NCBI GenBank assembly: GCA_026874595.1
Contig: CM049306.1
Coordinates: 62,192,019-62,256,018 of the forward strand
Origin: Sipunculus nudus
Taxonomy: Eukaryota; Annelida; Sipuncula; Golfingiida; Sipunculidae
Reading direction: 5' to 3'
DNA: 64,000 nt
Shown here piece after piece: positions 715 to 60,504 of this stretch. The position numbers were made by a program, and so were the translations under genes. The notes under the pieces were generated by a model, which saw only the letters and a list, made by a program, of their open reading frames with translations, was not told the origin of the DNA and ran no database searches. Every line of letters starts with the position of its first letter. The stretch's first letter is position 1.

Positions 715-813
715 GCTAAACAAGGGACCCTTTGGTCACGGCGCTCCGATGTTATATACCATCACAAAATATAATTTGGAAATGAGGCACATGCTGGTTT
801 TGTGTAGTAATAT

Positions 814-877
814 TGTTACGGGGTGACATAATTGCGGACCGAACTGTCTCGCTAGTGAAGCTTTTGTGTAGTAATAT
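814..877 (+). repeat. 64-bp local tandem duplication
   Basis: The first 47 bases of the TRIM LTR plus the preceding 'ttttgtgtagtaatat' appear twice in a row with a 64-bp period. It looks like a duplication after insertion, since it includes both flank and LTR. Confidence 0.75.
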
Positions 878-1250
878 TGTTACGGGGTGACATAATTGCG
901 GACCGAACTGTCTCGCTAGTGAAGCTTGCTTTTCTAACGAAGCGGTTTGTACGCCGGACTTGTGCGCCACCGTTATGGGTTCAAATCCCGGATCGGCCCC
1001 TGAATAATTTGTCTCTGTAACAAAATTTGGGCCCGTCCAACATAACGGTAAACTTTCTGGCCCATGGAATAAGCTCACAAAAGTGTGACTCCTGGGATAA
1101 TTAGTCTTGTTCTGAAAGCAGAACGCTCTTAAGAGGGGGTGTGTTACGGGGTGACATAAAAGCGGACCGAACGGACTTGTGCGCCCCCAACATGGGTTCG
1201 AATCCGGGATCGGTCCAACGTTTTCCCCTCAGCAATTTGTCTACGTAACA
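878..1250 (+). mobile_element. Miniature LTR retroelement (TRIM-like) with tRNA-like LTRs
   Basis: Two direct repeats, 878-1022 and 1142-1250, both begin TGTTACGGGGTGACATAA and end GTAACA. The second lacks about 36-50 internal bases. The 119-bp interior begins, 4 bases after the left LTR, with a primer-binding-site-like TTGGGCCCGTCC and ends in the purine run AAGAGGGGG directly before the right LTR. There is no coding capacity. Each LTR carries a Pol III B-box-like motif (GGGTTCRAATCC at about 977 and 1194). A solo copy lies at 8667-8806. Known family behaviour: TRIMs are mobilised in trans by autonomous LTR elements. The shared ends with the neighbouring Gypsy LTR (TGTTAC and GTAACA) suggest a helper, but that is inference. 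A tRNA-derived SINE is the alternative; the LTR, purine tract, LTR layout argues against it. Confidence 0.7.
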
Positions 1251-1815
1251 ATTGTATTATGAGTTGTTGGTGTTAAGCTAATGTAAGATTTTGATATTAT
1301 CTTTGGAGACAGGGGAGAGGATTGACATCTTTATATTATTTACAAATGGAGTGCTATTGTCACATAGGTTTTGACTTAGCCATATAACTTTATTTACATT
1401 GCAGTAAAAGTATTTGAAAAAACTGTCCATTATCAGTCATGTTAATTATGCTTTTTACAAATGAGTTTAACAATTTCAGGTTATCCCTACCCATAAGTAG
1501 CACTAGCACATTTAATATAAGAGTTTAACTATTTATTAAAATCTAATAACAAATATTGTGCCAAATATAATTTTAATTAAAAATACATGTAATAACAATC
1601 ATATTAATTTTTATGGAGTACATATTAATATTTGTATTCAAATACATTTGCAAAGTATTCGCACCATGTCTGGTATTTATCATTTTCAGTTAAACAATGA
1701 TGTTGAGAATCAAGAATATACAAAATTAAAAAATGTAAATGATGATCAGAAGTACGTGTTTTCAGGCTTTTATTTATATTAAAAAAATAAAATTAATATA
1801 ATCACATTTGACTAC
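1251..1815 (+). repeat. F1 body, AT-rich, no gene
   Basis: Collinear with 43000-43595, including 'gtattatgagttgttg' and 'gagtttaactatttatt'. The short frame at 1558-1782 is AT-rich noise with no recognisable domain. Confidence 0.7.
1812..1815 (+). other. Target-site duplication of the Gypsy element (left)
   Basis: CTAC directly precedes the 5' LTR and CTAC directly follows the 3' LTR at 11175-11178. Uninterrupted F1 copies read ACTAATTTCACATC at the matching place (43593 and near 25532). Confidence 0.7.
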
Positions 1816-2010
1816 TGTTGCATGTGTCTGTTGACATTCTGATTCGTGTAAGGCAGGCCCTGGTTTATTGTGCGCAGGAGTATTGCATGTGTCAGTTAGG
1901 CAAGCATAGTCCTTTGCCATGGGAGACGCGCGAGCTGTGTGTTATTATCTCCGTAACAAAATTTATGCTCATCACGACTACGTGATCTGTTGTTTTTAGG
2001 TTCCGTATTA
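1816..2010 (+). repeat. 5' LTR of the Gypsy element, internally deleted
   Basis: It begins TGTTGCATGTG and matches the 3' LTR for about 120 bases to 'gacgcgcgagc', then jumps to the last 60 bases ('cacgactacgtgatctgttg'). About 660 bases, including the TATA region, are missing compared with the 3' LTR. The end is mutated (GTATTA where the 3' LTR has GTAACA). Confidence 0.85.
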
Positions 2011-2016
2011 TAAAAT

Positions 2017-2034
2017 TGCGGGTTTGTCCGGGAG
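2017..2034 (+). other. Primer-binding site candidate
   Basis: TGCGGGTTTGTCCGGGAG lies a few bases after the LTR end. By my count it agrees at 14 of 18 positions with the tRNA-Pro type primer site known from other LTR elements. The mismatches fit an old copy. The assignment to tRNA-Pro is tentative. Confidence 0.5.
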
Positions 2035-2172
2035 GCTTAAATAATAGTTCTGAAAATTTATTAGGCCTTGACATAGACACATTGTTTACAATACCTTGTT
2101 TACAAGATGACATATTGTTTACAATACATTGTTTACAAGAATTATTTTTTGTTATTGTTTTAACATCTTAAC

Positions 2173-4156: not shown

Positions 4157-4171
4157 GTACAGCCTGTACCA

Positions 4172-5617
4172 ATGGTGACAGAAAAGCCGTCACTTGATCA
4201 GGACACTGAACCTGAAAATAAGGAAATTCCTTTTTTGTATCCCTCATGTGCTGTAACTAGATCTATGGCCAAGAAAAACACACATGAGGATAATGGTCCA
4301 GATAATAACACTCTAGGAGTCACTAGTGACTCGTCTAACGACTTGCCGGTACAGGATGCAGCATTTTCAAGGTCAGAACTTATCGCGGAACAGCATAAGG
4401 ACCCTGATATTTCATGTTTGTTTCCAAGGGCAGTTTCTAAAGATGAACTGTCACAGAACCAAGTTTGTTTCTATGTTAAAAATGGAGTGCTTAGGCGTTA
4501 ATGGCGATCAACTGATGAATGCACTGATGATGAGTAGGCCATCAAACATCAAATAGTAATGCCCAAAAGCTATCGCAATGAAATTCTGAGCATGGCACAT
4601 GAAGCTCCTTTGTCTGGCCATTTAGGTATAAAAACTTATCAGAAAGTAAGTACACATTTTTATTGGCCTAACCTCAGGACAGATGTTGTACAATATTGTA
4701 AATCATGCGATACATGCCAGATGACAGACAAGCCCAATCAGAATCCTCCTAAAACCCCACTTAGGCCTATTCCTGCATTCGAGGAACCATTTAGTAGGTT
4801 TATCGTTGAATGTGTTCGACTACAGCTCAAAACAAAATCTGGACATGAATACTTGCTGACAAATATGTGCGCATCTACCAGGTTCCCTGAGGTAATACCA
4901 TTGCGCAAAATTAATGCTAAAAGTATTGTCATGATCATTTTGACCAAAATCCGTCCAGTCTGACCAAGGGTCTAATTGTATGTCTGGCTTATTCCAGCAA
5001 GTTTTGCTTGAGCTAGGTATGAACCAGTACAACTCTTCGCTATACCACCTTAAAAGTCAGGGCGCCCTCGAGTGTTTTCACCAGACATTAAAAAAACATG
5101 ATTTGGACTTATTGTTATGACACACAGAAAGACTGGGATGAAGGAATCCACCTATTGCTGTTTTCTTACTAGTTTTCGGACACTCAGTTCGAGATCCATT
5201 AAAACTGCTTAAAGAAAAACTCTTGTGTGAAAATCCTGATTTTCTTAGTTTATTGCGTTATGTCTCAGACTTCGCACTAAACTACACAATGCTTGTGAGA
5301 TTGCAAAGTCTAATCTTAAATCTACACAAAGTAAAATGAAAACAAAGTATGACAAGCACACTGTAAGTAGGACGTTTGAGCCTGGTGAAAAGGTTCTTGC
5401 CTTACTACCCATCCCTGGCAGACCTCTGGAAGCTAGGTATTTTGGTCCTTACATTGTTGATAAGAAAGTCAGTGATTTAATTTACATACTATTAACACCA
5501 GATAGGCGTAAAAACAAACAACTGTGCCATGTTAACATGTTGAAACCATTTAATGACAAAAAAAGCACATCCGATGTTGTACATAATGTTACTGCTGTTA
5601 ATTTGTGTAAAAACTGA
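4172..5617 (+). pseudogene. Gypsy integrase, placed before reverse transcriptase
   Basis: Integrase would insert the cDNA into host DNA. A linker (4172-4501) precedes the HHCC zinc domain in the frame starting at 4559 (His14, His21, Cys47, Cys50 of that frame). The catalytic core follows, from 'FSRFIVEC' through 'LLTNMCASTRFPEVIPL' and 'DQGSN' near 4962 to a degraded third-acid region ('SQGALECFHQTLK'). The C-terminal part at 5336-5560 carries a GPY/F module ('RYFGPYIVD'). The first catalytic acid position reads Glu where the family normally has Asp. Frameshifts near 4955 and stops near 5118 and 5140 break the core. The position upstream of reverse transcriptase is the striking feature. Confidence 0.9.
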
Positions 5618-6660
5618 CCCTGACCCAGTTAAAGTAGATACTGATTGTAAGTGTGATGTAGACATTCAGTGTGGAAAAGTACCAATCAAAAACTCAGACA
5701 TGCTTATCGACCTGGATGCCAAACTGTCACACCTTACCGCACAACAACAACAAGACCTCAAGAACCTGCTGCAGAATTATGAACATTTGTTTAGTGATAT
5801 TTCAACGCGAACTAACATATTGTGCCATGACGTCGATGTTGGCGAGGCAAGCGCAGTCAAGCAGCATCCTTATAGACTGGATCCAGAAAAGCAAAAGTAT
5901 CTACAAGATGAGGTTCAAAATTTGCTGTACAATGATTTTATTGAACCTAGTAACAGTAACTAGAGTTCACCATGTATTCTTGGGCCAAAACCTGATGTAA
6001 GTTACTGTATGTGCACAGATTATCGAAAAATGAACTCTGCCACCAAGACTGACACGTTCCCGTTTCCGAGGATCAATGATTGTATTGATAGAGTCGGTAG
6101 CTCCAGATATGTCTCTATGTTCGACTTGCTAAAAGAATTCTGGAAAGTTCCGCTGACAGAACGAGCGAAAGAAGTGTCCGCATTTGTGACGCCGCAAGGA
6201 CTGTCTCAGTATAAAGTTATGCCGTTTGGCATGAAGAATTCGCCAGCCACGTTCCAGCGCCTTATCCATATAGTCGTCAAGGACATTCAGGGCTGCGACG
6301 CATATATTGATGACCTCGTCATGTACAGCGACACCCGGGAGAAACATCTGCAAATCCTTCACGACCTCTTCGAAAGGCTCAGCGAAGCATGTATAACCGT
6401 CAACTTAGTCAAATCTGAGTTTTGTCATGCACAAGTAACATTTTTGGGTCATATTGTAGACAGGGTCAAGTAAAACCTGTTGATGCTAAAATGCTATATC
6501 TGCATTTCCTAGACCAGAAAACAAGAATCAAATAATTGGTTTTCTTGGTATTGTTGGATACTACAGGAAGTTTTGTCCAGATTTTTCTGCTGTAGCTGAA
6601 CCTTTGACTAATTTGTGAAAGAACAAACAAAAGTTTGTATGGAATGTTCAGTGTGAAAAT
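5600..6660 (+). pseudogene. Gypsy reverse transcriptase
   Basis: The RT domain would copy element RNA into DNA. The frame at 5553-5963 carries the entry region ('QHPYRLDPEKQKYLQDEV'), ends in a stop after 'EPSNSN' and resumes at 6009 with 'CTDYRKMNSATKTDTFP'. The catalytic motifs are visible: 'SMFDLL' (first Asp), 'VMPFGMKNSPATFQ', and YIDD at about 6303-6314, followed by the thumb ('VTFLGHIV'). After a frame change at about 6470, 'IGFLGIVGYYRKFCPDFS' continues toward RNase H. Stops at about 5961 and 6616 and the frame change make it inactive. Confidence 0.93.
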
Positions 6661-7427: not shown

Positions 7428-8003
7428 AACAAAGCCAACAGGCCTTATGCGAACCTGTGCAAAGTTTGGGTATGTATGATTATTTTTTAAATTTAATACT
7501 GATCCTCTCATGTCCTGCACATCTACCTTAGTCATTATGATTTGGCCAAATGGACGTTTCGGACCTGCACGTTTCGGACTAGGACATCTTAAAACTAGGA
7601 TGTATCAGTCAGGATATTTCCGATGTTCCTTTTGCCAGGGAGGGATATTGGTACAGATGAACGGACAATTTGGCAGCATGGTATCGGAGAAGAATATTTT
7701 AATATGGATTTTTTAGCTTTTTCCCTATAAAATTTAAGAACAAGTTCTCCTTTAGTCCTGGTATTGAGTCCCACCTACTCATGCATTCTGGCAATGGAGG
7801 CTAAGCTTTCCCCCAGATCAAGGGAACCTAATGTGTCACATGTAACCTCACCTCTGGCTCTTACAGATTGAAACTTACCACTGGCTCTTACAAACTGAAA
7901 CATGACCTGTTGGCAAATTTGAAATGGTTGGCAGTCTGCCAAAGGTATTTATAGATAGAGAGCGTAACTTGACCTTTTGTAAAATCTGACACAGTTGGCA
8001 GGT

Positions 8004-8050
8004 TCTAGACGTCTAGACGGTGTGTAGACACATCGTCTAGACGTCTAGAC
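8004..8050. repeat. Palindromic fold-back in F4
   Basis: TCTAGACGTCTAGA (8004-8017) and GTCTAGACGTCTAGAC (8035-8050) are both perfect palindromes. They also pair with each other around a short loop. A shorter version lies at about 18200-18225 in another F4 copy. Confidence 0.85.
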
Positions 8051-8666
8051 TGTATCTGGACACCAGGCAGAGCCAGGTCATTTGCCATGGTGATGTCTGG
8101 ACTGAAATTGAGTGCACTGATTGACCTCTTGACTTGACATGTTGAAACTTGCCATGCGGCCAAATCTGTTTTCAAACACTGAAAGCCTTTTTCAATTGGC
8201 TACACTGCTTTTTTAAAGCTGCATTTACCCAATCGATTCTTATGAAACTAACAGAACTGCTATAGAACAATTCTTGTAAATGGTAAACCAATCTGCTTAA
8301 CAGTTTCTAAAAAAAAACAGTGTATAAGCTAGAAGAGTCTAAACTTACATTTTTGCTTGTAAAAAACAGATTAATGTAGGTGGCGCCACCAACACCTCAA
8401 TTTCAGATATGACTCATGTCACAAACATTGGCATAAAATTTGGTGATGACATCTCCAGCTGCTTCTAAGATTTTTAGTTTAGTATGTTTTTTTTGCACAG
8501 ATAACTGAGTTAAACCTCCTGTAACTCGGCCAAAAATCACCGAACCGGAGCCATTCAAACAAATTTGCGAGAGATTGTTCTAGGGATCATTTCTGTGAAA
8601 TATTGGACAATTTGGCTGGAAAGTTTCGGAGAAGAAGATTTTTATGTCTTTTTTAATTTTTCCTGT

Positions 8667-8806
8667 TGTTACGGGTTGACATAAAAGCGGACCGAACTGT
8701 CTCGCTATTGAAGCTTGCTTTGCTAGCGAAGCAGTTGGTACGCCAGACTTGTGCGCCACCAACATCGGTTCCAATGTTTTCCCTTGAGCAATTTGTCTTC
8801 ATCACA
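8667..8806 (+). mobile_element. Solo LTR of the TRIM-like element
   Basis: It begins TGTTACGGGTTGACATAA, matches the LTR at 878-1022 over its length and ends CATCACA. CTGT flanks it on both sides (8663-8666 and 8807-8810). Other F4 copies read straight through at this point ('ttttcccctataaaatcta' near 13050), giving an empty site. The B-box region is mutated here (GGTTCCAATG). Confidence 0.8.
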
Positions 8807-9580
8807 CTGTATAAAATCTAAGAAAAACACTGAATCAAAACCATTTGAACAAAAATGAATTATCAACATCTAAGGATTATTCATGTGTGAGATTAAAGAT
8901 TTGACCCAGTGGTTTTTGATAAGAACATTTGACTATATTCAGCTTCCCATAACTCGGCCAAAAGTCATTGAACAGGGACCATTTGAACAAACGTAAGGAA
9001 GCACTATCCTTGGAGCATTTCTCTGCAATATTAAACAATTTGGCTTTACGCTTTCGGAGAAGACTTTTTTTTTGTAGCCCTCTGTATGCTTCGGGCACCG
9101 TTGACCCCCGTACAAAAAGACCAATGCAGGTGGCGCCACCAATACCTCAATTTAAGATATGACTCAAGTGAGCAACATTAACATAAAATTTGATGATGAT
9201 AGCTCCAGCCGTTTCTCAGATTGTAATTTTAGCATGCGAATGACTAAGTTCAACTTCCTGTAACTCGGTCATTCGAACAAACTTGAAAGAGATTGTTCCA
9301 GAGAACATTTCTGTGAAATATTTAACACTTTGGCTGGACAGTTTCAGAGAAGAAGATTTTTAAAGGTTTTTAAGTTTTTTCTCTATAAAATCTAAATTAA
9401 TGCAGATCCCAATAATAAGCTCTAGGGCACCAAGTTTCACAATTGTCTAATTCTTACATATAATTTGGCGCTGCTAGCTCCGACGGTTTCTGACTTACAT
9501 CCATTGACGGCGAACAGCCAACCTTGGACGGCGGACGGACGACGCAGCGCCATCACATAAGCTCACAGGTTCGCTAAAAA

Positions 9581-11174: not shown

Positions 11175-11332
11175 CTACTTTCACATCAATCTACACACTA
11201 GACACAGTAAGAATCTAGATTAATATTATCAACTGCATCTTAGTCTATCTTTAATTTCCTTCATATCCCTAAGGATTAGTAATAAATAATATTATTTTTT
11301 TCTTATTATTAAAACTGAAATGAACAAGGCCT

Positions 11333-13238
11333 ACAGGCCTAATGCGAACCTGTGCATTGGGAAATACACCAGGTATAATGCTTCAATGCTGGACCATTAC
11401 TTCTCATGTATATGAACGATGCAAGTTCTAAACATTTTGAATAAGAAACAATTACACAAACATCACTGCTGAAATTCTGGCACAGGTGCACACAACATAA
11501 AAACGATTGTAGCTGGCACCACCAGTCTTATATACAACAAAGCTATCAGAGATATATACATATGCCCAATTTCAGACTGATATATCAAACCGCTTCTGAA
11601 AATAAGCAGGGACATTCACTGTGCAAAAGTCATTTTAGGTGGCGACACCTGTCTTGTGAACAAGAAAGCCATCAAAGACACATAGACAGGTCAAAATTTC
11701 AGGCCCATACATCAAACTTACCTTGAGTCTGATGCTTGGGGCTGACCAGGCTTAGGTAAAAAAGGCAGTTGCCCCGAGTGAACTGTGACAAATTTGCTGG
11801 CTCAGGCTACTGCACTGGGTGAACTCATGACCCGCAACTGGCTAGACTGAGGGAACTTCTGACCTGTACTTGGCTGCAATGAGTGAACTCTTGACCTGTT
11901 GCATAATCTGACACAGTTGGCAGTCTGCAAAAGCTATAATTAGATCCAGGCTGAACTTTGGTGCCAAATCTGATCAGTGGGCAGTCTGCCAAGGCTATGA
12001 ATAGAATGCAGCTACTGCACTGAGTGAACTCCTGACCCATACCTAGCTGCACTGAGTGAACTCTTGACCTGTTGCCTAATCTGATTCAGTTGGCAGTCTG
12101 CCAAAGCTATAAATAGATGCAGACTGACCTCTAGCCTGTTGCCATATCTGAAATAGTAGCCACACATTGCATAAGCTCATGCAGGGGCCCTGCCCTGAGG
12201 AGCATTACACCCATGAAGAGATCACATGGTGCCCATGAGGTGTTCACATGTCACCCATGAGGTGATCACATGCCTTTTGCTTGGCTGCACTGATAGAACT
12301 CTTGACCTATATCTGGCTGCACTGAATGAACTCTTGGTCCGTTGCCAAATCTGAAACAGCTGGCAGTTTCTCAACCTATTTCAAGATACAGACACAATCT
12401 TAGCCTGTTGGTAAATCTGTTTACACATACTGAAAGACTTTGCTTTTTTCTTCAAGCTGACGTATTAACAAAATCTGCAACTTCAAATATGAGTCATGCG
12501 ATCAACATTTGCACAATACTTGGTATTACTAACTTCTGTCTTTCTGAGATTACTATTTCAGTATGCTAACTTGGCCAAATGACTGTTCAAATTCGTGAAA
12601 CTCCACTAAAAAGTCATCAAATGCAAACCATTTGAACAAACTTGAGAGGGACTACCTTTGGGTTCATTTCATATTAAATAATTTGGCCAAATGGTTTCAG
12701 AGAAGAAGTTTTTTGTAGCCGTCAGAATGATACGGGCACTGATGACCCCCGTACAAAAAAGGCCGATGCAGGTAGCACCACCAATACCTCAATTTCAGAT
12801 ATGACTCATTTGACCATCATTGGCTTCAAATTTGGTGATGATAGCTACAGCCATTTCTGAGATTGTAATTTTAGTATGCTTTTTTGGACAGATGACTAAG
12901 TTCAACTTCCTGTAACTCCGCCAAAAACGCCGAACTTAAACCAATCGAACAAAATTTGAGAAAGATTGTTCCAGGAATCATTCCTGTGAAATATTGGACA
13001 ATTTGGCTAAACAGTTTCGGAGAAGAAGATTTTTAAAGCTTTTTTAGCTTTTCCCCTATAAAATCTATGAAAATGCAGTTAGCCAAAAAATAAGCAAAAT
13101 CACATAGAGTGTTTTAGATGACTAATTTTTAGCATAAAATTTCGTGATGCTAACTCTTGCCGTTTTCAAGATAGTATGGGTTAACGTACAGATGCCGGAC
13201 GACGCCACACCATCGCAGGTTCACAGGTTCGCTAAAAA
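11333..13238 (+). mobile_element. F4 element copy 2
   Basis: It starts AACAAGGCCTACAGGCCT, then GCGAACCTGTG, and ends TTCACAGGTTCGCTAAAAA. The flanks 'attattaaaactgaaa' and 'ccataggtgactgc' are contiguous in two other F1 copies (about 25640 and 43740), so the insertion is proven by paralogous empty sites. The interior consists of monomers with 'gagtgaactc', 'gcagtctgcc' and later 'ttcagagaagaag'. Confidence 0.85.
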
Positions 13239-15110: not shown

Positions 15111-16974
15111 AACTAGTGGCCTATGGGCCATGACGCTCAGCTGAATTCAAGGAATGTTGAACAATGAGCAAAATGACTGCCAGAGTGCAGACAAATCATG
15201 AATTTTGTGAAGTGTCCTAAGAAATGGGTTTTTAGTGGGCTTTTGGAAATAGAAAGAAAAATGCGTAAAAATTTGAAAAAAAAAATACAGGTAGTGCCAC
15301 CAGTCTGCAGGAACTGATGAAACACTCCATTATCAATATATATCACAAGAATCATAGCTATCAAGGCATTAGTTATTCAGATACTGGAGCTTCTGTTTGT
15401 ATCAAATTTTTAATTATGCCAACAGAGACCTAATTTCATATTTCCAAGAAGACTTTTCATGGACCTCCCTAGAAGTCAAGTAAGAAGATTCTAGGTCAAG
15501 TGGTTACGATTTGTGCCCTGTTACAAGATGAGGCTTTATTTGAAAGTCTCAAAAAGAGAAAAAAATATGTAAAAATTGGAAAAATACATGTGGCGCGACC
15601 AGTCTGCAGGAACTGATGAAACAATCCATGATCAATATGCATGCAAAAAATCATGGCCATCAGTACATTAGGTATTCAGATACTGCAGCTTTTGTATCAC
15701 ATTTTTTAATTATTCTTAGGGGTACTTGCGAGAAGGGCTGAAAGGAGTACTCGAGTACTTGAGTCCGGGTAATACTTACCGAGTACTCGAGTCCAAGATT
15801 TGGACTCGAGTACTCTTGTATGTACATGCATATATGTATATTACTTCAAATTTTAGGACAGTCTGTGGGATTATTTATCCATTGTCGTAGCCTAGCGTAG
15901 GGCTCTAAACATATGCTATAGTCAAATTTATCGAGGTCTTGTTATGACATATATCTATTCCTTCGTTGCGATAAAGTTGAGCCGTCACTAAGTCAAATTT
16001 ATGCATATTTTGCATCGGTAAACAGATGTTCGTTTTATCTTCACAGCGTTGCCATGGTAACGAGTACTCGAGTCCGAAACGGGTAATGCCTAGCGGGTAC
16101 TCGAGTCCAAAATTTTGTACCTGTTTCAGCCCTACTTGCGAGCCCCATAGCTTGGAGGATATGGGTAACAGAGACCTAATTTCACATATCCACAGAGACT
16201 TTTTATGAACCTTCCTTGATGTCAAGTTAGAAGATTCCAGGTCTAGTTGTTACGATTTGTACCCTGTTAACAGATGAGGCTTTATTTGAAAGTCTCAAAA
16301 AGAGAAAAAATGCGTACAAATTAAAAAAAAAAATATGTGGCGCCACCGGTCTGCAGGAACTGATGAAACACTCAATGATCAAAATGCCTGCAAAGAATCA
16401 TGGTGATCAATGCATTAGTTATTCAGATACTGGAGCTTTTGTATCAAATTTTTAATTATTCTGAGGGGTACTCACTACAAAGGATATGGGTAACATAGAC
16501 CTAATTTCATGTTTTTCACAGAGAATTTTTATTGACCTCCCTTGATGTAAAGATAGAAGAATCCAGATCCAGCGGTTACGATTTGTGCCCTGTTAACAGA
16601 TGACAGCCCCTTTGATAGACTCAAAAATTCGTAAAAATTGGAAAAAATACAGGTGGTGCCACCAGTTTGCAGGTACTGATGGAACATCCCATGATCAATA
16701 TTCATGCAAAGTATCATGGTGATCAATGCAGTAGTTATTCAGATACTTGACCTTTTGTATCAAATTTTGCATTATTCGGGGGGGGGGGGGGGGGGGATAC
16801 TTCAGAGCCCCATAGCTCCATAGCTTGAAGGATATGGGTAACAGAGATGTAATTTCAGGTTTTCAAGGAGATTTTTCATGGACCTCCCTGGATATTATGA
16901 TTCCAGGTCCAGTGGTTACGATTTGTGCCCTGCTAACAGATGACAGTTTCATTGCAGGTCTGAAAAAAAGAGAA
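15111..16974 (+). mobile_element. F1 element, 5' part with monomer array
   Basis: The 5' end AACTAGTGGCCTATGGGCCA contains a near-palindrome, followed by GCTCAGCTGA. About four monomers of the 335-bp type follow. It is interrupted by a hAT miniature element (15733-16134) and then by F6 at 16975. A G-run lies at about 16779-16796. Confidence 0.75.
15733..16134. mobile_element. hAT-type miniature transposon (402 bp)
   Basis: Inverted ends AAGGGCTGAAA and TTTCAGCCCTA, with an exact 8-bp duplication CTTGCGAG at 15725-15732 and 16135-16142. The F1 monomer reads through without it ('ggggtacttgcgagcccc'). Subterminal repeats of 'actcgagt' occur near both ends. There is no transposase, so it is non-autonomous. 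TIRs beginning (C/T)AGGG with 8-bp duplications define the hAT superfamily. Confidence 0.9.
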
Positions 16975-17166
16975 AACTAGATGTGTCGGAACGACACGAA
17001 TGCCCCTGCCTGAGGCAAATAAGAAAAAATTGTTAAATTTTGTAAAATTTTCAGGTGTTGTATGGTCAAAAGTAGGTCAACAAGGGCAAAATGCAAACTC
17101 GATCTGTAAACAGGTCATTATCAAGCAACACACCAAAAAATCAGGCCAGTATCTGCAGGCACTGTG

Positions 17167-19499: not shown

Positions 19500-19782
19500 A
19501 ACAAGGGGACTATGGGTCACGGCGCTCAGCTGTTATATATGATAAAAAAATATGATTTAGAAATGAGGCACATGCTGGTTTTATGTGGTAATAAAAATAA
19601 GCTGTATTATGAGTTGTTGTTGTTTAGCTTATGTATGATTTTGATAGTACCTTTGGAGACAGGAAAGAGGATTAATTTCATTTATTTTATTAACAAATGG
19701 AGTGCGATTGTCACACAGATTTTGACTTGGCCATATAACTTATAAGCAGAACATATAATATAAGAGTTTAACTATTTATTAA
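19500..19782 (+). mobile_element. F1 element, 5' fragment (host of the next nested element)
   Basis: AACAAGGGGACTATGGGTCA, then GCTCAGCTG; collinear with 42891-43175. It is interrupted at 'tttattaaaa' by a second F1. Its likely 3' part is 28126-28632 (ending 'agtcagctgagctaaaaat'), with internal sequence lost. Confidence 0.65.
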
Positions 19783-19963
19783 AACAAGTGACCCATGGGT
19801 CATGACGCTCAGCTGACTGGGAAGAGATTCACAAAAGGAAATTTTATCATCAGAATGGTAGATACCCATTCAACTTAAGCAATAAACAGATTAACCAACA
19901 GGCCAAGATTTAGTCTGTATTTATATATCTGAAAAATAGAAAAAAAATGTGTAAACTTTAAAA

Positions 19964-45553: not shown

Positions 45554-46862
45554 ATGTTACATTTATATCTTAGAAAAGGAATACAACATTCCAGATAATA
45601 TATATCATGTATTATTATAAAATTTGATCGATTTACGAATTTAAGCAAATATTTTTTAAAAACTAAAATTAATTCTTTTTCAAGTTTTTGACTCTTTCTT
45701 TCAAACTTTATCAATCTCGATATTTATATTTTATTAATTTCACTCCTGATGTTTCAACATCACATTTCAACTTCAAATATATGGATATTTATTAATATAT
45801 TAAAGTATGTTTGCAACTGATTGCATGATAAGGGCATATAACCAGAATGTGCTCCCTTCAACTTCATATAACTGTACGATTACAAGGATCTCGATAAGAA
45901 ATTACAATTTTGTTTATATAATATATATATATAAATGCAACCGGACCATGAAATGTAAAATAATATTTGGCATAAAAAGTATTACATAATAGATAAGAGT
46001 CTAAGAGATTCATAATCCTGATGAATTTTTTTTGGTCAATGGAAGAGGAAAATGTTTTCAATTTATACATAAAAAAAAATAAAATATTTTGTTCGAAACA
46101 ACTTGTAAAGACGGTTTTTTGGTTCTGTCAAATTTTCTGTTTAAGTCTCTATGATATTATCAGGGTGATTTTTAAAGGGGCACATGTATAAAATATTATC
46201 AAAACCTTTATTTTTTTTATGTTTCCATCAACATAAAATGCGGTAACAGCGTAAAATATTGATGAGTTAAAATAATCTTGTTTTACAAAATGGAATAAAA
46301 TATCAATATAATATATTATTAAAAAAACAGCATCATGAATGTTACAAAACAGATTGAATTTATTAAAAATACATGATACTGAAGAAACTGAAAATGCTTG
46401 ACACGTTTGCTGACGATATGATGACCAGTGCATATGCCATTACTGGCTTCCGAGTTTTACACATTTGGACCATATCTTGGCATTTCCGAGCAAAAAATAG
46501 TCATTAACTTCGGATGAATCACTTTGATTATTTAACATGATGATAGAAAAGACCTTATTCTATCCATAAAAATAAAAAGATTCTTTCCATTGATAAAGTA
46601 GCATTTTAATTATGCTTCGATCATTGCTTTAAAAAAAGTCCTTGCTTCCGACTTCGGACTTCCGAGTTTTACACATAGCCGTTTGGAAATCCCCTACCGG
46701 AAGTTATGATTCTCCCGCTGACAGACGTGGAGACGAGTTTTTCGAGTAAAACCAGCCTCGGAATTAAAAACTGCTGCACGTTTACACGTAAGTCAACCGT
46801 GGATGTAATAATTATTATTTTCCCCAACAGGATAACGTCAATTTTTGTCTTAACTCAGGAAA
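45554..46862. other. AT-rich island sequence and possible promoter
   Basis: No gene is recognised at 45554-46640. At 46690-46787 a GC-richer stretch with CCGGAAGT could be a promoter with a 5' leader. A very short putative intron (46788-46830, 'gtaagt' to 'ccccaacag') precedes the ATG at 46863. Confidence 0.4.
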
Positions 46863-47027: not shown

Positions 47028-48691
47028 CCAACCTGCTTGCAGAAATCGAAGATTTCCGGCAAGCAATAAACAGACAGTTGCGACTGGCCAACCTGCCTGC
47101 AGAAATGGAAGATTTCCGGCAACCAATTAAAAAAAAAACGGTTCGGGTCCTTTCCTGAAGGACTCACCGACTGAAACTTTGGACAGCAATCACCTGCATG
47201 CGCACAGATGCGCAGGCACGCGTTTTAGGTCTGACCAGGTCTGACCAGGTCTGAGGGCACACTGGAATGGTGACATTCCTATGGCCCTGAGAAAATGGTC
47301 AGCCCGTCCGGTATATTTATTCACAAGTTTTTACCAGGAAATGGCCGTGGTCCCCGCTACGCCAATTAATTCATCCCGTCGGCTGCGGGCCTGAATTGGC
47401 ATTTGGCCCGATGGACCCTACACAAAACGAGCAAACTGCGCTGATTGTCGCTCATACCTACACGAGTCTTTGTCTTACTAAAACGCGTGTCATCGTGCAT
47501 TCCTGCATGACTCTGTGCATTCAGGTTTCCCTCCGTTTATAAAGTTTATATGGACATACTGACAAAGTGACACAAGACCGAGACCAGATGACTTAACCAG
47601 GTTATGGAGAAGACTCAGACGAAGAACATAAGCTATGGTTTATGTAATTGAGTCTTTGGGTTTTAGAGATATGGCCAATATGATGATATGTGTGTGAGGG
47701 TCATGTGCAGCGCCCCCTAGCGGCCAATTCTGGAAAATGAAAAATCGGTTTCGAGATATTAGTGTAAGACATAAGATGTAATAGTTTTAAAAGGATTCTT
47801 TCAAAACTGTGTCCTGTAGAATGCTATATGTGAGACGCAAGAACCGGCAAGCAAGCGGATTTGAGGACAACTGAGAAACAGACGGACACACAGACAAAGT
47901 GACACAAGATTGAGACCAGATGACTAAACGAGTTCATGAAGAAGACTTAGAGGAAAAAAATACAATATAGTTTTTGTAATTGAGGCTTATAATTTTGGAG
48001 ATATTGCCAAAACATGATATGTTGGAGAGGTTTGCACCCAGCGCCCCCTAGCGGCCGAATTAAAAAAATGAAAAATTGATTTCGAGATAATAGTGTAGGA
48101 CTTAAGATATGCCAGTTTCAAAAAGATTCCTGCAAAACTGTGGCCTCCAGGGCAAGATTACTGAAATCTCGAAATATCTCGTTTGACGAGATATTATACG
48201 AGATATTGCGAGACTCTTAATAGAATCTTGTAGTACTAGGTGAATGCTACCTGAAGCAAAAAACTAGACCTCTGTAGCTTTAAAACTGACAAATTTAGAA
48301 AAATATCAGCACTTTTCCCCAAAAATGCGTTACCATGGTTACCGCAAATTGTGTCAGCTACACACCAGAAAACAGGCCTTGGAATGACGATTAAAATGAG
48401 CTACTGTTGAAGTAGATACGACCAATATTAACACAGATATGAACAAAAAACCGTTTTGTATACTTTTGATGACCTTGACCTTGACATTTGACCTATAATG
48501 CCCAAAAACAATAGGCCTCCAGGACTTTTGCTTGTCTACCAGCTGTATAAGTTTGAAAGCAATTGCTGGAAAATTGTGGCCTGTAGAGAGTACACAGACA
48601 GACAGACAAACAAACAAACAAACAGACAAACAGACATCCGCGACTGACCAACCTGCTTGCAGAAATCGAAGATTTCCGGCAAGCAACAAAC
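47021..48691 (+). repeat. 1,671-bp duplicated block, second copy
   Basis: Same as 39850-41520. It ends exactly at the F2 3' terminus 'ggcaagcaacaaac', and another F2 5' end (AACTAGACGACC) begins there. Confidence 0.85.
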
Positions 48692-49498
48692 TAGACGACC
48701 ATAGGTCGAGAGCTTGCCGGACTTAAATGACAAACAAATGGAGAAACAGGACAAACTGACGGTTTTCTATCAATTGAATGACTTTTAAAGCGATTGCTGG
48801 AACGTTTGGCCTGTTGAACGACATATATCACACAAAAGAACATGAAATCAAACATAGCTCAAAACAGACAAATATACTGACACACCTGAGAAAACAGACT
48901 ACAAGTGAAGGTAGAGTTTATAATGTCGGAGATATGGCCAAAAAATGATATGGTATGGAGGCTCTACCGCAGCATCCCCTAGCGGCCATATCCCAAAAAT
49001 TAAAAAAATTCTTTTGAGATATTATTGTAAGAAATGTTCCAAAATGTATATATTATTGTAAGAGATGTTCCAATTCCAAAAGGATTCCTTCAAAACTGTG
49101 GCCTGAAGATTGCTAACTGTAAGACGCAAGATCCAGCAATCAGGCGAAAATGAGGATCACTTACAAACAGACAGACATACTGAAAAACTGTGGCCTGAAG
49201 ATTGCTAACTGTAAGACGCAAGATCCAGCAAGCAGGTGAAATAGAGGATCACTGACAAACAGACAGACATACTGAAAAAGTGACACAAGAATAAGACCAG
49301 ATGACTAACTCAGATTATGTAGAAGATTCAAAGGAAGACAAAAAGTCATAGTGTTTGTAATTGAAGTTTATAGTTTTGTAGATATGGCAAAGAAATATAT
49401 ATAGGGGAGAGGCGAGTGCAACGCCCCCTATTGGCAATATCCAGAAAATGAATAATCTGTTTCGAGATATTACTGTAAGATGTTAGATGTAATAGTTT

Positions 49499-50744
49499 AA
49501 CAAGTGACCCATGGGTCATGACGCTCAGCTGCCAAGCATGACCTGCCACATCATGGGCTGAGATTCACAACTTCCAGTCACATTTTGAAGAACCAATTTG
49601 CCAATATGTTGAAATTTTCTACGACAACAGAAATATACATCACTTATGTCTGGTTAAAACACAGTGACTATATGGTCTTAGGAAAAATGAATGATTGTTA
49701 AGCTATCAGTAACTATTCCCATAGCTTGCTTGATACCTGACAGTCTCAAAAGAAACACCACAAAGGGCAAATATAAGATCAAAATATATAGCAAAAATCA
49801 AGGAAATCCATGCAAGAATTATTGAGAAACGGGTGCTTATAAACATGAAGTTTGAATCAAATTGAGTGACGCATAGATGTGGCATATGTGAAAGACTGAA
49901 GGTTTGGGTTGAATAGTTTCACTTGCAAAATGTTCACAACCATTTAGAATAATTAAGTAATGTGTCCTTGACCTTTGACCTTTTGAACTCGACATCGACA
50001 GGCTTCTTCCCCTATTGGTAGGTTAGCCATATATGACAAATGGAAGGTATAGATTGAAAAGTTTCCTGAAAATGACTCCACAAAAAAAGTGGGTGCAGTG
50101 AACTTCACCTTTGACCTCAAATTCAACAGGTCTGTTCCCCCCCTGTTGGCAGAGAAGCGATATCAGTGCTGGGAAGTTTGGAATGAAATGTCTAGCTTGA
50201 AATGTTTTCACAAACTTTTAAAAAAATTGGATCCTGTGACCCTGATCTTTGATCTTGTGACCTAAAAATCTATAGGATTCTTCTCCCTCTTAGTAGGTGA
50301 AATATATGTAAAAGTTCAAAGAATTGGGATGAAAGATTTGGCTTTAAATGCATCCACAGGCATTAAATAAAGGGACTACTGTGACCTTGACCTTTGACCT
50401 GTTGACTTCAAAATAATTATGGTTCTTCCCCTGTTGGTAGATGAGCTGTATGTGAAAGATGGAAGGTTTTGGATGAAAATTTTAGCTAAAAGAATTATTT
50501 CTGGGGGGTGCATACACTCCCTGTAACTTCGAGAATATAGGTCAGTGACCTAATTTTAGGTTTGCAAGGAGATCATTTGAGAACCTCTAAGACTACATAG
50601 GGTTCATGACCCTAGCCCGTACAGTTACGATTTGTGCCCTGCTAACAGACGGACGGCCGGTCAGCAGGATAAACAGATGGAAGGACGACGGACAAAGACC
50701 CATCGCTATAGCCAGGCATGAGTGAAAGTCAGCTGAGCTAAAAA
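49499..50744 (+). mobile_element. F1 element of the GACCTTTGACC class, complete (1.25 kb)
   Basis: It starts AACAAGTGACCCATGGGTCA, then GCTCAGCTG, and ends 'agtcagctgagctaaaa'. The interior has four 'ccttgacctttgacc'-type monomers and one piece of the 335-bp monomer ('gttacgatttgtgccctgc'). It is inserted in an F2 monomer. Confidence 0.85.
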
Positions 50745-51479
50745 TGATCCTTGCAAAACGGTGGCCTGTAGAATGCTATCAGTGAGACTCAAGAACCAAA
50801 AAGCCGGCGAATTTGAGGACAACTGACAAACAAACAGACAAACTTACAAAGGGACACAAGATGGAGACAAGATGACTTAATCAGGTTATGGAGAAGACTC
50901 AGAGGAAGAAAATAAGCTATAGTTTATGTAATTGAGGCTAATAATTTTGGAGATATGGCCAAATAATGATATACTGGATATGTTCGACTGCAGCGCCCTC
51001 TGGTGGACATCCTGAAATCGACAAATGCATTTCGTGATATTAGTGTATGACATAAGATGTAATAGTTTCAAAAGGATTCGTCCACATATCTGACTTGTTG
51101 ATTGCTATATCTAAAGTGCAAAAACTAGCAAGCAGGCGAATATGAGGATAAATGACAAACAGACAGACATACTGACAAAGTGACACTAGATGGAGCCAGG
51201 TGACTTGACCATGTTTTGAAGAAGACCAAGAGAAAGAAAATAAGCTATAGTTTGTGTAATATAGGTTTACTCTTACGGAAATATGTTCAAAAACTGATTT
51301 TTTTGGAAGGGTCAAGTGCAGCGCCCCCTAGCAACCATATCGGGAAAATGAAAAATAATTTTTGAGATATTAGTATAATACATTAGATGAAGGAACAAAC
51401 ATACACGGGTGACCAACATGCTTTCGAAAATCGAAGATTTCCGGCAAGTAATACAATGAATAAAGTCTGGACTGTGCCT

Positions 51480-51595: not shown

Positions 51596-51597
51596 TA

Positions 51598-53734: not shown

Positions 53735-53798
53735 AAACAGACATCCGCGACTGACCAACCTGCTTGCAGAAATCGAAGATTTCCGGCAAGCAATAAAG

Positions 53799-54975: not shown

Positions 54976-55010
<35 letters not shown>

Positions 55011-55070: not shown

Positions 55071-56556
55071 AACTAGATGACCTGAGGTCACGCGCTTGCC
55101 GGAAATGATGTTAAGTTAGTCAGATGAACGAGCAGTGTCAAAGTGAAAGAAAATAATCCATAGTTTGTGAAGAAAAAACCAAAATTAACAAAGTTCTAAA
55201 GAAAATAAGATTTTGATATATTTTTTATCACCTTGACCTTGACCTTTGACTTATTTGAATAATAAACATAGGACTTCCAGATATCATCACGATATATGAC
55301 AAGTGTAATTTACAAAACGATTCCTGCAAAACTGTGGCCAGTAGAATGCTACATGTGAGACGCTAGAACCAGGAAGCAGGCGAAATTGAGGAAAACTGAC
55401 AAACAGACAAACATACTGACAAACTGACCCAAGATTGAGAACAGATGACTTAATCATATTATGAAGAAACCTCAGAGGAAGACAATAAGCTATAGTTTTT
55501 GTAAATGAGGTTAATAGTTTGGAGATATGGGCAAAAAATGATATGTTGTGCAAGTTTGAGTGCACCGCCCCCTAGAAGCCAATTCTGGAAAATGAAAAAT
55601 CGGTTTCTAGATATTAGTGTAGGACATAAGATGTAATAGTTTTAAAACGATTCTTTCAAAACTGTGGCCTGTAGAATGCTATATGTGAGACGCAAGAACC
55701 GGCAAGCAAGCGGATTTGAGGACAACTGAGAAACAGACGGATACACAGACAAAGTGAGACAAGATTGAGACCAGATGACTAAACTAGTTCACGAAGAAGT
55801 CTTAGGGGAAAAAAATAAACTATAGTTTTTGTAATTGAGGCTTATAATTTTGGAGATATTGCCAAAACATGATATGTTGGAGAGGTTTGCACCCAGCGCC
55901 CCCTAGCGGCCGAATTCAAAAAATGAAAAATTGATTTCGAGATAATAGTGTAGGACTTATGATATGTCAGTTTCAAAAATATTCCTGCAAAACTGTGGCC
56001 TCCAGGGCAAGATTACTGAAATCGCGAAATATCTCGTTTGACGAGATATTATACCAGATATTGCGAGACTCTTAATAGAATCTTGCAGTACTTGTTAAAT
56101 GCTACCTGATGCAAAAAACTAGACCTCTCTAGCTGTAAAACTGCCAAAGTTAGAAAAATAAGGCCCCTTATTTTCGAATATCATGACTTTTTCCCAAAAA
56201 TTCGTAACCATGGTTACGGCGCATTTGAGTCAGGTACACACCAGATGACAGGCCTTGGAATGACGATTAAAATGAGCTATGTTTGAAGAAGATACGACTA
56301 ATAGTGACAAAGATATGAAGAAAAAAACGTTTTGAGAAGTTTTGATGACCTTGACCTTGACCTTTGACCTGTATTGCCCAAAAACAATAGGCCTCGAGGA
56401 CTTTTGCTTGTCTATCAGCTGTATAAGTTTAAAGAGAATTGATGCAAAATTGTGGCCTGTAGAGAGTACACAGACAGACAAACAGACAAACAAACAGACA
56501 TCCGCGACTGACCAACCTGCTTGCCGAAATCGAAGATTTCCGGCAAGCAACAAACA
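55071..56556 (+). mobile_element. F2 element copy, complete
   Basis: It starts AACTAGATGACCTGAGGTCA, has two full monomers and the 3' domain, and ends with hairpin 'gaaatcgaagatttccggca' and 'agcaacaaac' (about 56526-56556). Confidence 0.85.
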
Positions 56557-58111
56557 AACTAGATGACCAGAGGTCACGCGCTTGCCGGAAATGACGTTAA
56601 GTTAGTAAGATAAACGATCAATGTCAAAGTGAAAGAAAATAATCCCTAGTTTGTAAAGATAGGATCAATATTAACAAAGTTCTGAAGAAAAAAAATGTTG
56701 ATATGTTTCCATCACCTTGACCTTTGACTTATTTGAATAATAAACATAGGGCTTCCAGATATCATTACGAAATATGACAAGTGTAAGTTACAAAGCGATT
56801 CTTGCAAAATTGTGGCCAGTAGAATACTACATGTGAGACGCAAGAACCAGGAAGCAGGTGAAATTGAGGACAACTGACAAACAGACAAACATACTGACAA
56901 ACTGACCAAAGATTGAGACCAGTTGACTTAATCATGTGATGGAGAAACCTCAGAGAAAGATAATAAGCTATAGTTTATGTAAATTAGGTTTATAGTTTTG
57001 GAGATATGGGCAAAAAATGATATGTTGTGGAAGTTTGAGTGCACCGCCCCCTAGCGGCCATATCTGGAAAATGAAAAATTAGTTTCGAGATATTAGTGTA
57101 AGACATAAAATGTAATAGTTTTAAAAGGATTCTTTGAAACTGGGACCTGTAGAATGCTATATGTAAGACGCAAGAACCGGCAAGCAAGCAAGCGAATTTG
57201 AGGACAACTGAGAAACAGACGGACACACTGACAAAGTGACTCAAGATTGAGTCGAAATGACTACACCAGGATTTAGAAAAGACTCAGAGGATGAAAATAA
57301 GCTATAGTTTATGTAATTGAGGCTCACAGTTTTGGAGATATGGCCAAAACATGATATGTTGGGGAGGTTTGTATACAGCGCCACCTAGCGGCTGCATTCA
57401 AAAAATGGAAAAACTATTTCGAGATAATAGTGTAGGACTTACGATATGTCAGTTTCAAAAAGATTCCTGCAAAACTGTGACCTCCAGGGCACGATTACTG
57501 AAATGTCGAAATATCTCGTTTGACGAGATATTATACGAGACATCGCAAGAATTTTAATAAAATCGTGCAGTACTTATTAAATGCTACCTGATGCAAAAAA
57601 CTAGACCTCTCTAGCTTTAAAAATGACAAAGTTAGAAAAAAAAGAGCCCAGATTTTCGAATATCATGACTTTTTCCCAAAAATTCGTAACCATGGTTACG
57701 GCCAATTTGAAGCTGCTACACACCAGAAGAAAGGCCTTGGAATGACGATTAAAATGAGCTATGTTTGAAGTAGATACGACTAATAGTAACAAAGATATGA
57801 AGAAAAAACCGTTTTGTATACTTTTGATGACCTTGACCTTGACCTTTGACCTATATTGACCAAAAACAATAGGCTTCCTGGAATTTTGATTCTTGACCAG
57901 CTTTGTCAGATGGAAAGCTATTGCTGCAAAATTGTGGCCTGTAGAGAGTCCACAGACAAACAAACAAACAAACAAACCAACAAACAGACATACGCAACTG
58001 ACCAACCAACTTGCCGAAATCGAAGATTTCCGGCAAGCAACAAACAGACAAACAGACATCCGCGACTGACCAACCTGCTTGCAGAAATCGAAGATCTCCG
58101 GCAAGCAATAA
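56557..58111 (+). mobile_element. F2 element copy, complete, two terminal hairpins
   Basis: It starts AACTAGATGACCAGAGGTCA. Its monomers carry 'cgccccctagcggcc' (57047) and a variant (57377). The 3' hairpins lie at about 58016-58040 and 58083-58108. Confidence 0.85.
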
Positions 58112-58112
58112 T

Positions 58113-59322
58113 GCACATGACACCCAAGTGTCGACAAGCGACTACGTGTATCCGCCAAAATCGGAGAGGGACAGGTGAAGCGAGGCACTGATTGAGTGGC
58201 AAGGGGAAATAGAGTGAGGTGTGTTGCATATTAGCATGGATGTCTGCAGCCAAAATGTGTATGTTCGTGGTGCCACATGCCATAAAAATCAAGAAAGCTA
58301 TCCAAGTTGTATAGATATGCAAAATTTTAGGCAGATAAGTCAAACCATAGCTTGTATATGAGTGATTTTATCCCAAAGAAGCCAAACAGAAAAACCCTGT
58401 GCAAAAATGGTCGCAGGTGGCGCCACCAATTTTGTATATGATAAAGAGCTATGGGAGATCTACACACATGCAAACTTTCAAGGGGGGGGGGGGGGGGGGG
58501 GGGAATATGTCAAACCACTCCTGAGATATAAGCATGGATGTCTGCAGTGTACACATAAATGGAGTTGGCTCCACCTGCCACAAAATCCAGAAAGCTATCC
58601 AAGATATATAAACATGCAAAATTTTAGGCAATTAAGTCAAACCACTGCCGAGATAGGAGTGATTTTATCCCATTGCAGACAAACAGGTGGACTCCGTGCA
58701 AAAAAAAGTTGCAGGTGGCGCCACCAGTTTTGTGCATGATAAAGACCTATGTGAGATCTATACACTTGCAAAATTTCAGGAGGATATGTCAAACCAGTCC
58801 TGAGATATAAGCCTGGATGTCTGCAGCCTGAATGTGAATGTAGGTATAGCCACCTGTCATAAATTCAAGAAAGCTATCCAGATGTATACACACACAAAAA
58901 TTTCAGTTGGATAAGTCCAACCACTGCAGAGATATGAGTAATTTTATCCCAAGGCAGACGAACAGATGGACGCTGTGCAAAAATGGTTGCAGGTGGGGCC
59001 ACCATTGTTTGTGTATGTTATAAAATAAATAAAGCTATCAAAGGGCTACATTTGTACAAAATGTTTAGCCTGATTGGTCAAATAAGTCAGAAGATATGTG
59101 GGTTAATGTGTCAAAACAGACACACAGATGGTCACACTAGGGAAAGAAAGGTCAGTGGTCAACGCAAATTATTTTGGCACCAGTTCACATGTGACCCAAT
59201 AACAGTGAAAAGTTTCAGAATAATCTGTCCAGTAGTCTCAGAGTTCTATTCCAGAAACAAACGCTGCAGTGGAAACGGTTCAAAAAACATAGTATCCGCG
59301 AAACTTTGTTTTGGCGGATACA
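58113..59322 (+). mobile_element. F3 element copy 4
   Basis: Diverged 5' end with 'gtcgacaagcgactac' and TGTATCCGCC. It ends GTATCCGCGAAACTTTGTTT, then GGCGGATACA. A G-run lies at about 58481-58503. Confidence 0.75.
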
Positions 59323-59614
59323 ATGATTAAGTTGAAATAAACTAAATACAGTGTTTTGTGAAAAGGTACCCCCAATTAAATATTCATTTAAGTACCAATT
59401 GTTGTCTTTTTAATGGCAGAGTAAATGAATCACCCTATATCAGTTAGGGGTCACAATTAGTAGTACATGTGAAAACCTTCAGCCATATGTATACACATTT
59501 TTTAAAGGTGATAAACATTTTCTGAATAGACACAGAACGTTGTGACCCAGAGAATGAGCACACAGAACACAGAGAATGAGCACACCCCTGAGTTATAAGC
59601 AGAAAGGCATCAGA
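59323..59614. other. Intron sequence between two F3 copies
   Basis: No gene and no copy elsewhere in the window. A short direct repeat 'cagagaatgagcacac' occurs twice near 59550-59587. Confidence 0.6.
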
Positions 59615-60504
59615 AACTAGAATACGACAAGCGACTACGTGTATCTGCCAAAATCAGAGTAGGACGGGTGAAGTGAGGCATGGATTGATTGGCAAGGGGA
59701 AATAAAGTTACATGCGTTACATATTAGAATGGATGTCTGCCACGTAAACATGATTGTAGGTGGTGCAACCTGTTATTTGAATGAGAAACTATCCAAGATG
59801 CACATGCACAATTTCAGGTGGAGAAGTCAAACCACTGCAGAGATATGAGTGATTTTATCCCACAGCAGACAATCAGATGGACGCTGTGCAAAAGTGGCTG
59901 CAGGTGGCGCCACCATTTTTGTGTATGTTATAAAGCTATCAAAGGGCTACATTTGTGTAAAATTTTTTTCCTGATTGGTCAAACGGTTCCCGAGATATGA
60001 GCATGGATGTCTGCAGCGTGAACATGAATGTAGGTGGCGCCACCTGTCATAAAATCAAAAAAGCTATCTAAGATGTATACGCATGCCCAAGTTCAGGTGA
60101 ATTAGTCAAACCACTGCAGAGTTATGAGTGATTTTAACCCAAGGCAGATGAACAGAAGGACACTGTGCAAACATGGTTGCAGGTGGCGCCACCTTTTTTT
60201 GTGTATGTTATAAAGCTATCCCAGGGCTACATTTGTGTAAAAATTTTTTTCCTGATCGGTAAAACGGTTCCCGAGATATGTGGGTTTATATGCGGAAACA
60301 GATGCACAAACGGACGCTGGGCAGAGAGGAAAGGTCAGAGGTCAAGGCCAATTGGTTAGGCACCAGTTCACATGTGACCTGATAATTGGTGTAAGTTTTG
60401 GAAAAATCCATCCAGTAGTCTCAGAGGAGTTCTCCGGAAACGAACAGGGCGGCGGAACCCATTCAAAAACATAGTATCTGCAAAACTTTGTTTTGGGGGA
60501 TACA
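59615..60504 (+). mobile_element. F3 element copy 5
   Basis: AACTAGAATACGACAAGCGA opens it. It ends 'gtatctgcaaaactttgttt' and 'gggggatacaa'. Half-monomers are joined through GGTGGCGCCACC. It lies only about 130 bases downstream of the 23-nt SNRPG exon in gene orientation. Confidence 0.8.

Follow-up and report, generated by a model that had tools for sequence, protein, structure and literature searches.

Here we report that six sequence-unrelated repeat families, F1 to F6, found in a 64,000-nucleotide stretch of Sipunculus nudus DNA (C1:62192019-62256018 on contig CM049306.1; hereafter the window) are, with high confidence, non-autonomous Helentrons (HINEs; Helitron2 class). Their pairs of subterminal inverted repeats (SIRs) and hairpins go with clades of Rep/Helicase (RepHel) proteins, and in the region surveyed unrelated families share a strand across distances of tens to hundreds of kilobases, for which insertion into single-stranded target exposed at replication forks would be the simplest cause. 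This common orientation is the most surprising feature of the elements, and it went unremarked in the original prediction, which had been made from the window alone and had described six families built on one plan. The genome searched comprised 1.43 Gb in 153 contigs.

In that plan an element begins with AAC(T/A)AG and a short hairpin, here called the start, and closes on its SIR returned in inverted form, here called the end. One consensus start per family was searched across the 64-kb window at up to 25% mismatch and against 20 shuffles. It gave 22 starts (F1 5, F2 5, F3 3, F4 1, F5 7, F6 1), all on the plus strand and none on the minus strand, and the shuffles gave none. As predicted, AAC(T/A)AG stands at the start or within 20 bases before it, in 20 of the 22; the misses are F2 at 58127 and F3 at 7428. 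Family ends number 35, with 34 on the plus strand and one on the minus strand (63568-63601); the short F2 end tag also matches the minus strand three more times, each at the SIR of an F2 start, and the shuffle background of the F2, F3 and F4 end tags was 0.15-0.20 matches. A blind scan of the window for AACWAG followed by a hairpin of at least 5 bp returned 18 of 61 on the plus strand and 3 of 28 on the minus strand, three of the 18 being GGTGGCGCCACC-like satellite. The six hairpins and five SIR motifs described earlier are real, all located in the window with at most one mismatch, and the tandem arrays within elements were confirmed. F1 has 18 ends and 5 starts, many of the ends sitting in arrays, and its palindrome varies with pairing preserved (TGACCTGAGGTCA and CGACCATAGGTCG among the window copies, CAACCTGAGGTTG in one autonomous element). 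A second F6 end was searched for in the window and not found.

Zero-mismatch matches of the family tags across the genome sum to 24,644 (F5 8,731; F5v 5,799; F3 4,218; F2 3,540; F6 1,874; F1 409; F4 73), while the backwards-sequence control of each tag had no genome match. Statistics based on place rest on at most the first 100 listed places per tag, and one tag list (33,424 copies) that gives only plus-strand places, and is probably forward-only, was used for plus copies only.

The polarity of the original plan is reversed: the AAC(T/A)AG-hairpin is the 3' terminus of the element and not the 5' one, since in F5 and F6 such ends lie downstream of RepHel genes and no convincing one was found upstream of them. 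From 143 Helitron_like_N matches we read five regions and the 3' sides of 20 more. An F5-type (10) or F6-type (2) 3' terminus lies downstream of the gene, in its coding direction, in 12 of these 25 regions, about 0.2 to 1.1 kb past the coding end; counted by place, 16 such termini have the direction of the gene and 2 the opposite one (L029, L035). The downstream terminus of B_C17, L030, L031, L038 and L040 approximates TCAGCTGAGC-ATCA-TGACCCATGGGTCA-CTTGTT, the reverse complement of the 5' end first proposed; D_C7 and L028 have a GCCG variant, L032, L033 and L035 a TGGCC variant, and L034 and L036 the F6 terminus, GGGGGCATTC-GTGTCG-TTC-CGACAC-AT-CTAGTT. In all three B copies read far enough upstream, the F5 5' hairpin stands 6.3-6.6 kb before the gene. 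These regions represent few lineages and are not independent witnesses, as L034 and L036 are 98% alike in protein, and upstream DNA is 99% alike between L028 and D_C7 and about 96-99% alike among B copies. In L030 (about 1685-1765 of the reverse complement) two different F5-type 3' ends stand in tandem at a spacing of 45 bp, and the palindrome of the first is broken; the arrangement looks like read-through to a second terminator.

Read in the corrected direction, F1 to F5 have SIRs at both ends, the 5' one terminal, and all six families have a palindrome near the 3' end. A 5' hairpin formed by the SIR was seen by eye in F1, F2, F4 and F5 and not in F3. The insertion site can be read from the sibling B elements L043 and L044, of which only L044 holds an extra F2 copy: the empty site in L043 is AACAGTAATTAATGTTA, and the filled one in L044 is AACAGTAAT[TGTATCCGCC...TTCTAGT]TAATGTTA. 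F2 thus entered at TT with zero duplicated bases in the one copy examined, and terminal target duplications, which the original prediction had associated with another class, are absent there. With TT at both edges, the F2 cut position may shift one base either side. Of 19 further 3' ends, 12 have A as the base outside AAC, 4 have T, 2 have G and 1 has C.

That the families belong to the canonical Helitrons (Helitron1), which insert between A and T and end 3' in CTRR, we regard as extremely improbable. Rep and helicase domains are common to both, an alternative reading of the F2 empty site is AACAGTAA^TTAATGTTA, where the element closes 3' in CTAG and fits CTRR, and F1, F4 and F6 can likewise be read as ending in CTAG(TT) owing to the TT ambiguity. 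However, 5'-TC is not present at the 5' termini of F1 to F5, the 3' end is CTTG(TT) in F3 and F5, both ends carry SIRs, and the F5 and F6 partners carry an endonuclease domain. The SIRs, 3' palindrome, TT empty site and RepHel-endonuclease partners are those of the non-autonomous Helentron type, as first proposed, and the anatomy of such elements is already published (PMC3627910, PMC4067079, PMC7492417).

The F5 and F6 partners carry Rep, PIF1 helicase and an Exo_endo_phos-type endonuclease beside the same ends. Among the RepHel proteins, Pfam matches reached 1.7e-27 and 7.4e-28 for Helitron_like_N and 1.2e-20 and 5.2e-23 for PIF1. Exo_endo_phos or Exo_endo_phos_2 was above the cut-off in L030, L036 and L042 and below it in L017; L042 is the clade A relative in which the endonuclease of that clade was seen. 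Identity is 31% between clades A and B and 65% between B and D; the F6 endonuclease shares about 30% with each of A and B. In the clade A copy C8, an F1-type start (AACTAG, CAACCT-G-AGGTTG, CGCTTGCCGG) stands 7.8 kb upstream of a 2,250-residue frame and an F1 end 6.3 kb downstream of it, with no F1 start in between. The autonomous F1 element is about 21 kb long with its gene inverted, reading in the direction of the original plan; copy C11 yielded F1 ends on the downstream side only. RepHel genes in inverted position have been described before (PMC3627910, PMC4067079). Autonomous elements bearing the family ends, which the original prediction had suggested looking for, were found for F5, F6 and F1, and tentatively for F3 (L041). 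A nested F2 element upstream of the gene is common to the B-family copies L043, L045, L046 and L017/L018, and was probably carried along by transposition.

Several observations weigh against this account of class and partners. The insertion site is that of a single empty site, with TT at both edges leaving its position open by two bases; L041 has no recognisable coding sequence beside its F3 end; and none of the 25 RepHel regions read could be recognised as an autonomous partner of F2 or F4. Similarity among the B copies also extends at least 325 bp past their presumed 5' end on the upstream side, so that this boundary may belong to a composite.

The original prediction had further given each family its own lock-and-key pair of ends. 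Pairing was analyzed with the first 100 listed places per tag and compared with a shifted null. Among listed F3 starts, 37 of 98 are followed on their own strand by an F3 end at most 6 kb away (null mean 3.7, maximum 10; spacing 1.2-5.3 kb); for six an F3 end lies upstream, and none is followed by one on the opposite strand. An F3 end goes with 14 of 302 listed starts of F5, F5v, F6 and F2. An F5 end accompanies 20 of 31 listed F5v starts (null 8.2, maximum 17), 8 of 14 listed F5 starts (null 4.0, maximum 8, and so not above the null maximum) and 5 of 18 listed F3 starts (null 4.8). Pairing within families is supported by these counts. Distinct ends also go with distinct clades: F1 with A, F5 with B and D, and F6 with a third, A, B and the F6 clade being about 30% identical to one another. 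Strict lock-and-key pairing, in contrast, is too strong and is not supported: one F5 SIR is common to B and D proteins that are 65% identical, L030 carries its two different ends, and L029, 85% like B over 67 residues, has a degenerate D-like 3' end.

By the published convention, an element opens at its 5' terminus with the SIR (able to fold back as a hairpin in F1, F2, F4 and F5); towards the 3' terminus the SIR returns inverted, ahead of a short palindrome and CT(A/T)GT. Elements enter a TT dinucleotide without target duplication. By analogy with published Helitrons, from which the strand mechanics are taken (the ends, the one empty site and the proteins being observed here), a Rep-helicase-endonuclease supplied by autonomous copies with the same ends would nick the 5' end, displace one strand and stop at the 3' hairpin.

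Orientation was surveyed with 323 listed ends pooled over C1 0-12.03 Mb, so that the long-range claim rests on the start of one contig. Between 0.06 and 1.17 Mb, 65 of 66 listed ends lie on the plus strand. A two-state hidden Markov model (fidelity 0.98, length constant 100 kb) reached a log-likelihood of -145.4, as against -223.9 for an unstructured model and -221.0 for the best of 30 shuffles. Among listed ends, the strand was correctly predicted from the other tags for 64/81 F5, 80/100 F5v, 56/66 F3, 24/28 F6 and 32/39 F2. At 100-200 kb, listed ends shared a strand in 80/104 F5-F3, 86/104 F5v-F3, 34/43 F5-F6, 37/47 F5v-F6, 41/51 F3-F6 and 102/147 F5-F5v pairs, and in 33/70, 24/50, 46/81 and 17/30 of the pairs with F2. 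The effect is strongest in the first 3.2 Mb, where 205 of 228 pairs of listed ends from unrelated families agree at 50-200 kb. From 3.2 to 12.03 Mb, with F5-F5v pairs left out, 164 of 234 listed pairs agree at that distance (226 of 348 when F5 and F5v, which have a common SIR, are counted as separate families); a rotation null had mean 0.50, standard deviation 0.046 and maximum 0.671, and 0 of 5000 rotations reached the observed value. Taken by itself, the stretch 3.2-7.5 Mb gives weak agreement at 50-100 kb (24/49, or 19/34 without F5-F5v). Only 9 of the 100 listed F1 places fall within C1 0-12.03 Mb; elsewhere on C1, listed F1 ends lie 9/10 on plus at 64.75-65.47 Mb and 14/14 on minus at 65.95-67.64 Mb.

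Part of this agreement can be understood as new copies that land next to or within existing ones and keep their direction, through nesting and tandem arrays, which as the full explanation we consider somewhat unlikely. F1 forms head-to-tail arrays in which starts lie 3 to 7 bases past the preceding ends, agreement between unrelated families peaks below 20 kb (89 of 93 listed pairs), and 11 of 20 flanks of copies from the first block match other sequence that was read. Yet cross-family agreement lasts to 100-200 kb in the F5-F3, F5v-F3 and F3-F6 pairs given above, and the 164 of 234 pairs that agree at 50-200 kb past 3.2 Mb do so over distances longer than any single element.

Other results weigh against a long-range orientation as well. 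Ends without a listed neighbour within 30 kb, whose behaviour also favours nesting, agree with other families at 30-200 kb in only 27 of 40 cases, and in 16 of 27 beyond 3.2 Mb; nesting accounts for part of the short-range agreement and, given these isolated ends, may account for more. Confident predictions for ends lying more than 20 kb from any end of another family are few (F5 4/4, F5v 8/9, F3 2/2, F6 1/1, F2 2/5; 17/21 in total). Rotations of single pairs reached the observed value in 1/77 for F5-F3, 8/67 for F3-F2 and 16/54 for F5-F2, as did 1334 of 5000 shuffles for F2-F2. F2 shows nothing beyond 100 kb (75/155 listed at 100-200 kb), and listed F1-F1 pairs share a strand in 4 of 9 cases at 100-200 kb. 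RepHel genes are without strand clustering genome-wide (13 of 26 pairs at 20-200 kb, from 130 of 143 rows typed and with further pieces at the same place excluded), in a set that includes fragments and in which gene polarity varies from clade to clade.

A high-copy non-Helentron control was sought in the sequence read, where nothing abundant was recognised. The controls used, a Ty3/gypsy tag (1,291 copies) and a tRNA-like tag that is probably a short interspersed element (SINE; 928 copies), are small and underpowered. Over all 100 listed places, gypsy copies share a strand in 2/5 pairs at 2-20 kb, 9/11 at 20-100 kb and 1/7 at 100-200 kb. Thinned to one per 30 kb on C1, the small samples of controls agree at 30-400 kb in 8/22 (SINE) and 9/17 (gypsy), together 17/39, and an underpowered comparison with the local Helentron vote gave 3/4 and 0/1, respectively.

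Large segmental duplications could have multiplied a few insertions in the same direction, and the strongest block does lie at a contig end. We consider this very unlikely, as the flanks of 20 copies from the 65/66 block share sequence in only 5 of 190 pairs, the longest good match being 95 bp at 90%. The TTAGGG repeat is absent from the C1 end pieces (300 and 208 bases), and by eye the last 208 bases of C1 (L084, right end) resemble the start of a histone H2B gene. Host transcription is an unlikely explanation, though less so: one direction may be selected against within genes, or insertion may favour transcribed single strands, and in human introns other transposable elements are described as biased towards the antisense direction (PMC3517506). 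For 65 of 66 ends to share a strand across 1.1 Mb, transcription there would nevertheless have to be nearly unidirectional.

A strand shared by unrelated families at 50-200 kb points to a property of place rather than of donor. In light of this we infer that the direction of the replication fork may set the orientation of the elements, much as it does for IS200/IS605 in bacteria. Insertion would be into target DNA that forks leave single-stranded on one template strand, which would fit the scale of the blocks and the single-strand chemistry of HUH nucleases. Transposition may in that case be coupled to host replication, the moving strand joining single-stranded TT sites on one template strand, and the tens of thousands of insertions from several families would form a strand-resolved fossil map of fork direction in the germline; we offer this tentatively, at rather less than even confidence. 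A simple copy of the IS200/IS605 mechanism is argued against by Helraiser, which needs double-stranded donors and circles (PMC5876387), although the requirement bears on the donor and not on the target. If fork direction does set orientation, the idea can be tested in any species for which Helitron annotations and a fork-direction map both exist and can be overlaid, and HINE orientation would be a sequence-only proxy for germline replication direction. The end pairs and RepHel clades provide a natural panel for asking which protein recognises which terminus.

The features of the window are given here on strands that follow the published 5'-SIR convention, on which all but one are minus; the original plan reads on plus. 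F2 (TGTATCCGCC SIR) is represented by an element at 24003-25460 (AACTAG start at 24003, SIR-hairpin end at 25460), a terminus with AACTAG, hairpin and SIR at 17339-17381, a diverged terminus at 19977-20006, a start without AACTAG and the next F2 end at 58127-59322, and a start and next F2 end at 59620-60504. F3 (GCGAACCTGTG SIR) has a diverged start and next end at 7428-9580 and starts with next ends at 11323-13238 and 17167-18884, and the F4 element (GTATCCCCAGACA SIR), whose start tag has 73 exact genome copies, lies at 29349-30431. F5 3' termini are found at 719-751 (diverged, 7 mismatches), 15111-15143 (TGGCC variant), 19500-19532 and 19783-19815 (exact consensus); an F5 terminus and next F5 end, a pairing we infer from order, span 23621-27419, and starts with next ends span 42891-45554 and 49499-50744. 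The F6 3' terminus (GTGTCG-GAA-CGACAC), the same as beside RepHel loci L034 and L036, is at 16975-17008. F1 has a terminus at 35742-35773, a start and next end with 331-bp repeats at 37495-39635 (more F1 ends follow up to 39955), a start with palindrome CGACC-ATA-GGTCG and next end at 48689-51451, starts with next ends at 55071-56550 and 56557-58040, head-to-tail with each other, and the end at 63568-63601, on plus and the only one of opposite orientation.

Motif contexts at 39.9-41.6 kb recur at 47.1-48.7 kb, always 7,171 bases further on, which suggests that F1 array sequence was duplicated locally. At 62707-62760 lies what may be a seventh start, AACAAG and then a GTTTTATC-CG-GATAAAAC hairpin, and a one-mismatch search with one candidate partner motif gave no convincing partner. 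Ty3/gypsy-like pieces (integrase zinc-binding, integrase C-terminal domain and reverse transcriptase, with integrase before reverse transcriptase) occupy 4538-6470; the reverse transcriptase tag has about 1,291 genome matches at up to 3 mismatches. At 798-1100 two perfect 64-bp repeats adjoin a tRNA-like B-box (GGGTTCAAATCCCGGATCGGC), probably a SINE, with 928 copies within one mismatch. The tRNA and Rfam scans of the window each returned nothing.

Our observations can be set beside several known systems. Helitron2 (Bao and Jurka 2013, PMC3627910) shares the asymmetric terminal inverted repeats, compensatory changes and, in some elements, an inverted RepHel gene; its 5' repeat lies 0-2 bp from the end as part of a 5' hairpin, and its 3' repeat about 20-30 bp from the end, upstream of a hairpin, an arrangement like that here, where the 5' hairpin was judged by eye. 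Unlike our elements, it is described without endonuclease (PMC4067079), and its examples insert after TTTT. Helentrons and HINE/DINE-1 (Thomas et al. 2014, PMC4067079) resemble the present families in their SubTIRs, 3' palindrome, tandem repeats, TT preference, lack of target modification, Rep/Helicase/Endonuclease partner, several families per genome and one partner gene in minus orientation; we found no anatomical difference, and orientation blocks are not mentioned in the sections available. The number of families, which the original prediction had singled out, is several indeed but has precedent, as seven mite families (HINE-Mo-1 to 7) have their own subterminal repeats (PMC4067079), and the oyster Cg_HINE group (PMC7492417) has 11 elements, with satellite-like arrays, a microsatellite, TT preference and no duplication. 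Both integration orientations are noted for the oyster, with no spatial pattern of orientation reported in the sections available, and we found no report of Helitron orientation blocks in the accessible portions of the open-licence PMC literature. A parallel to the proposal made here is provided by IS200/IS605 and Tn7 (PMC5371812), whose orientation records the direction of replication; those elements are bacterial and the relationship was demonstrated by experiment, whereas ours are eukaryotic, with a proposed link to replication.

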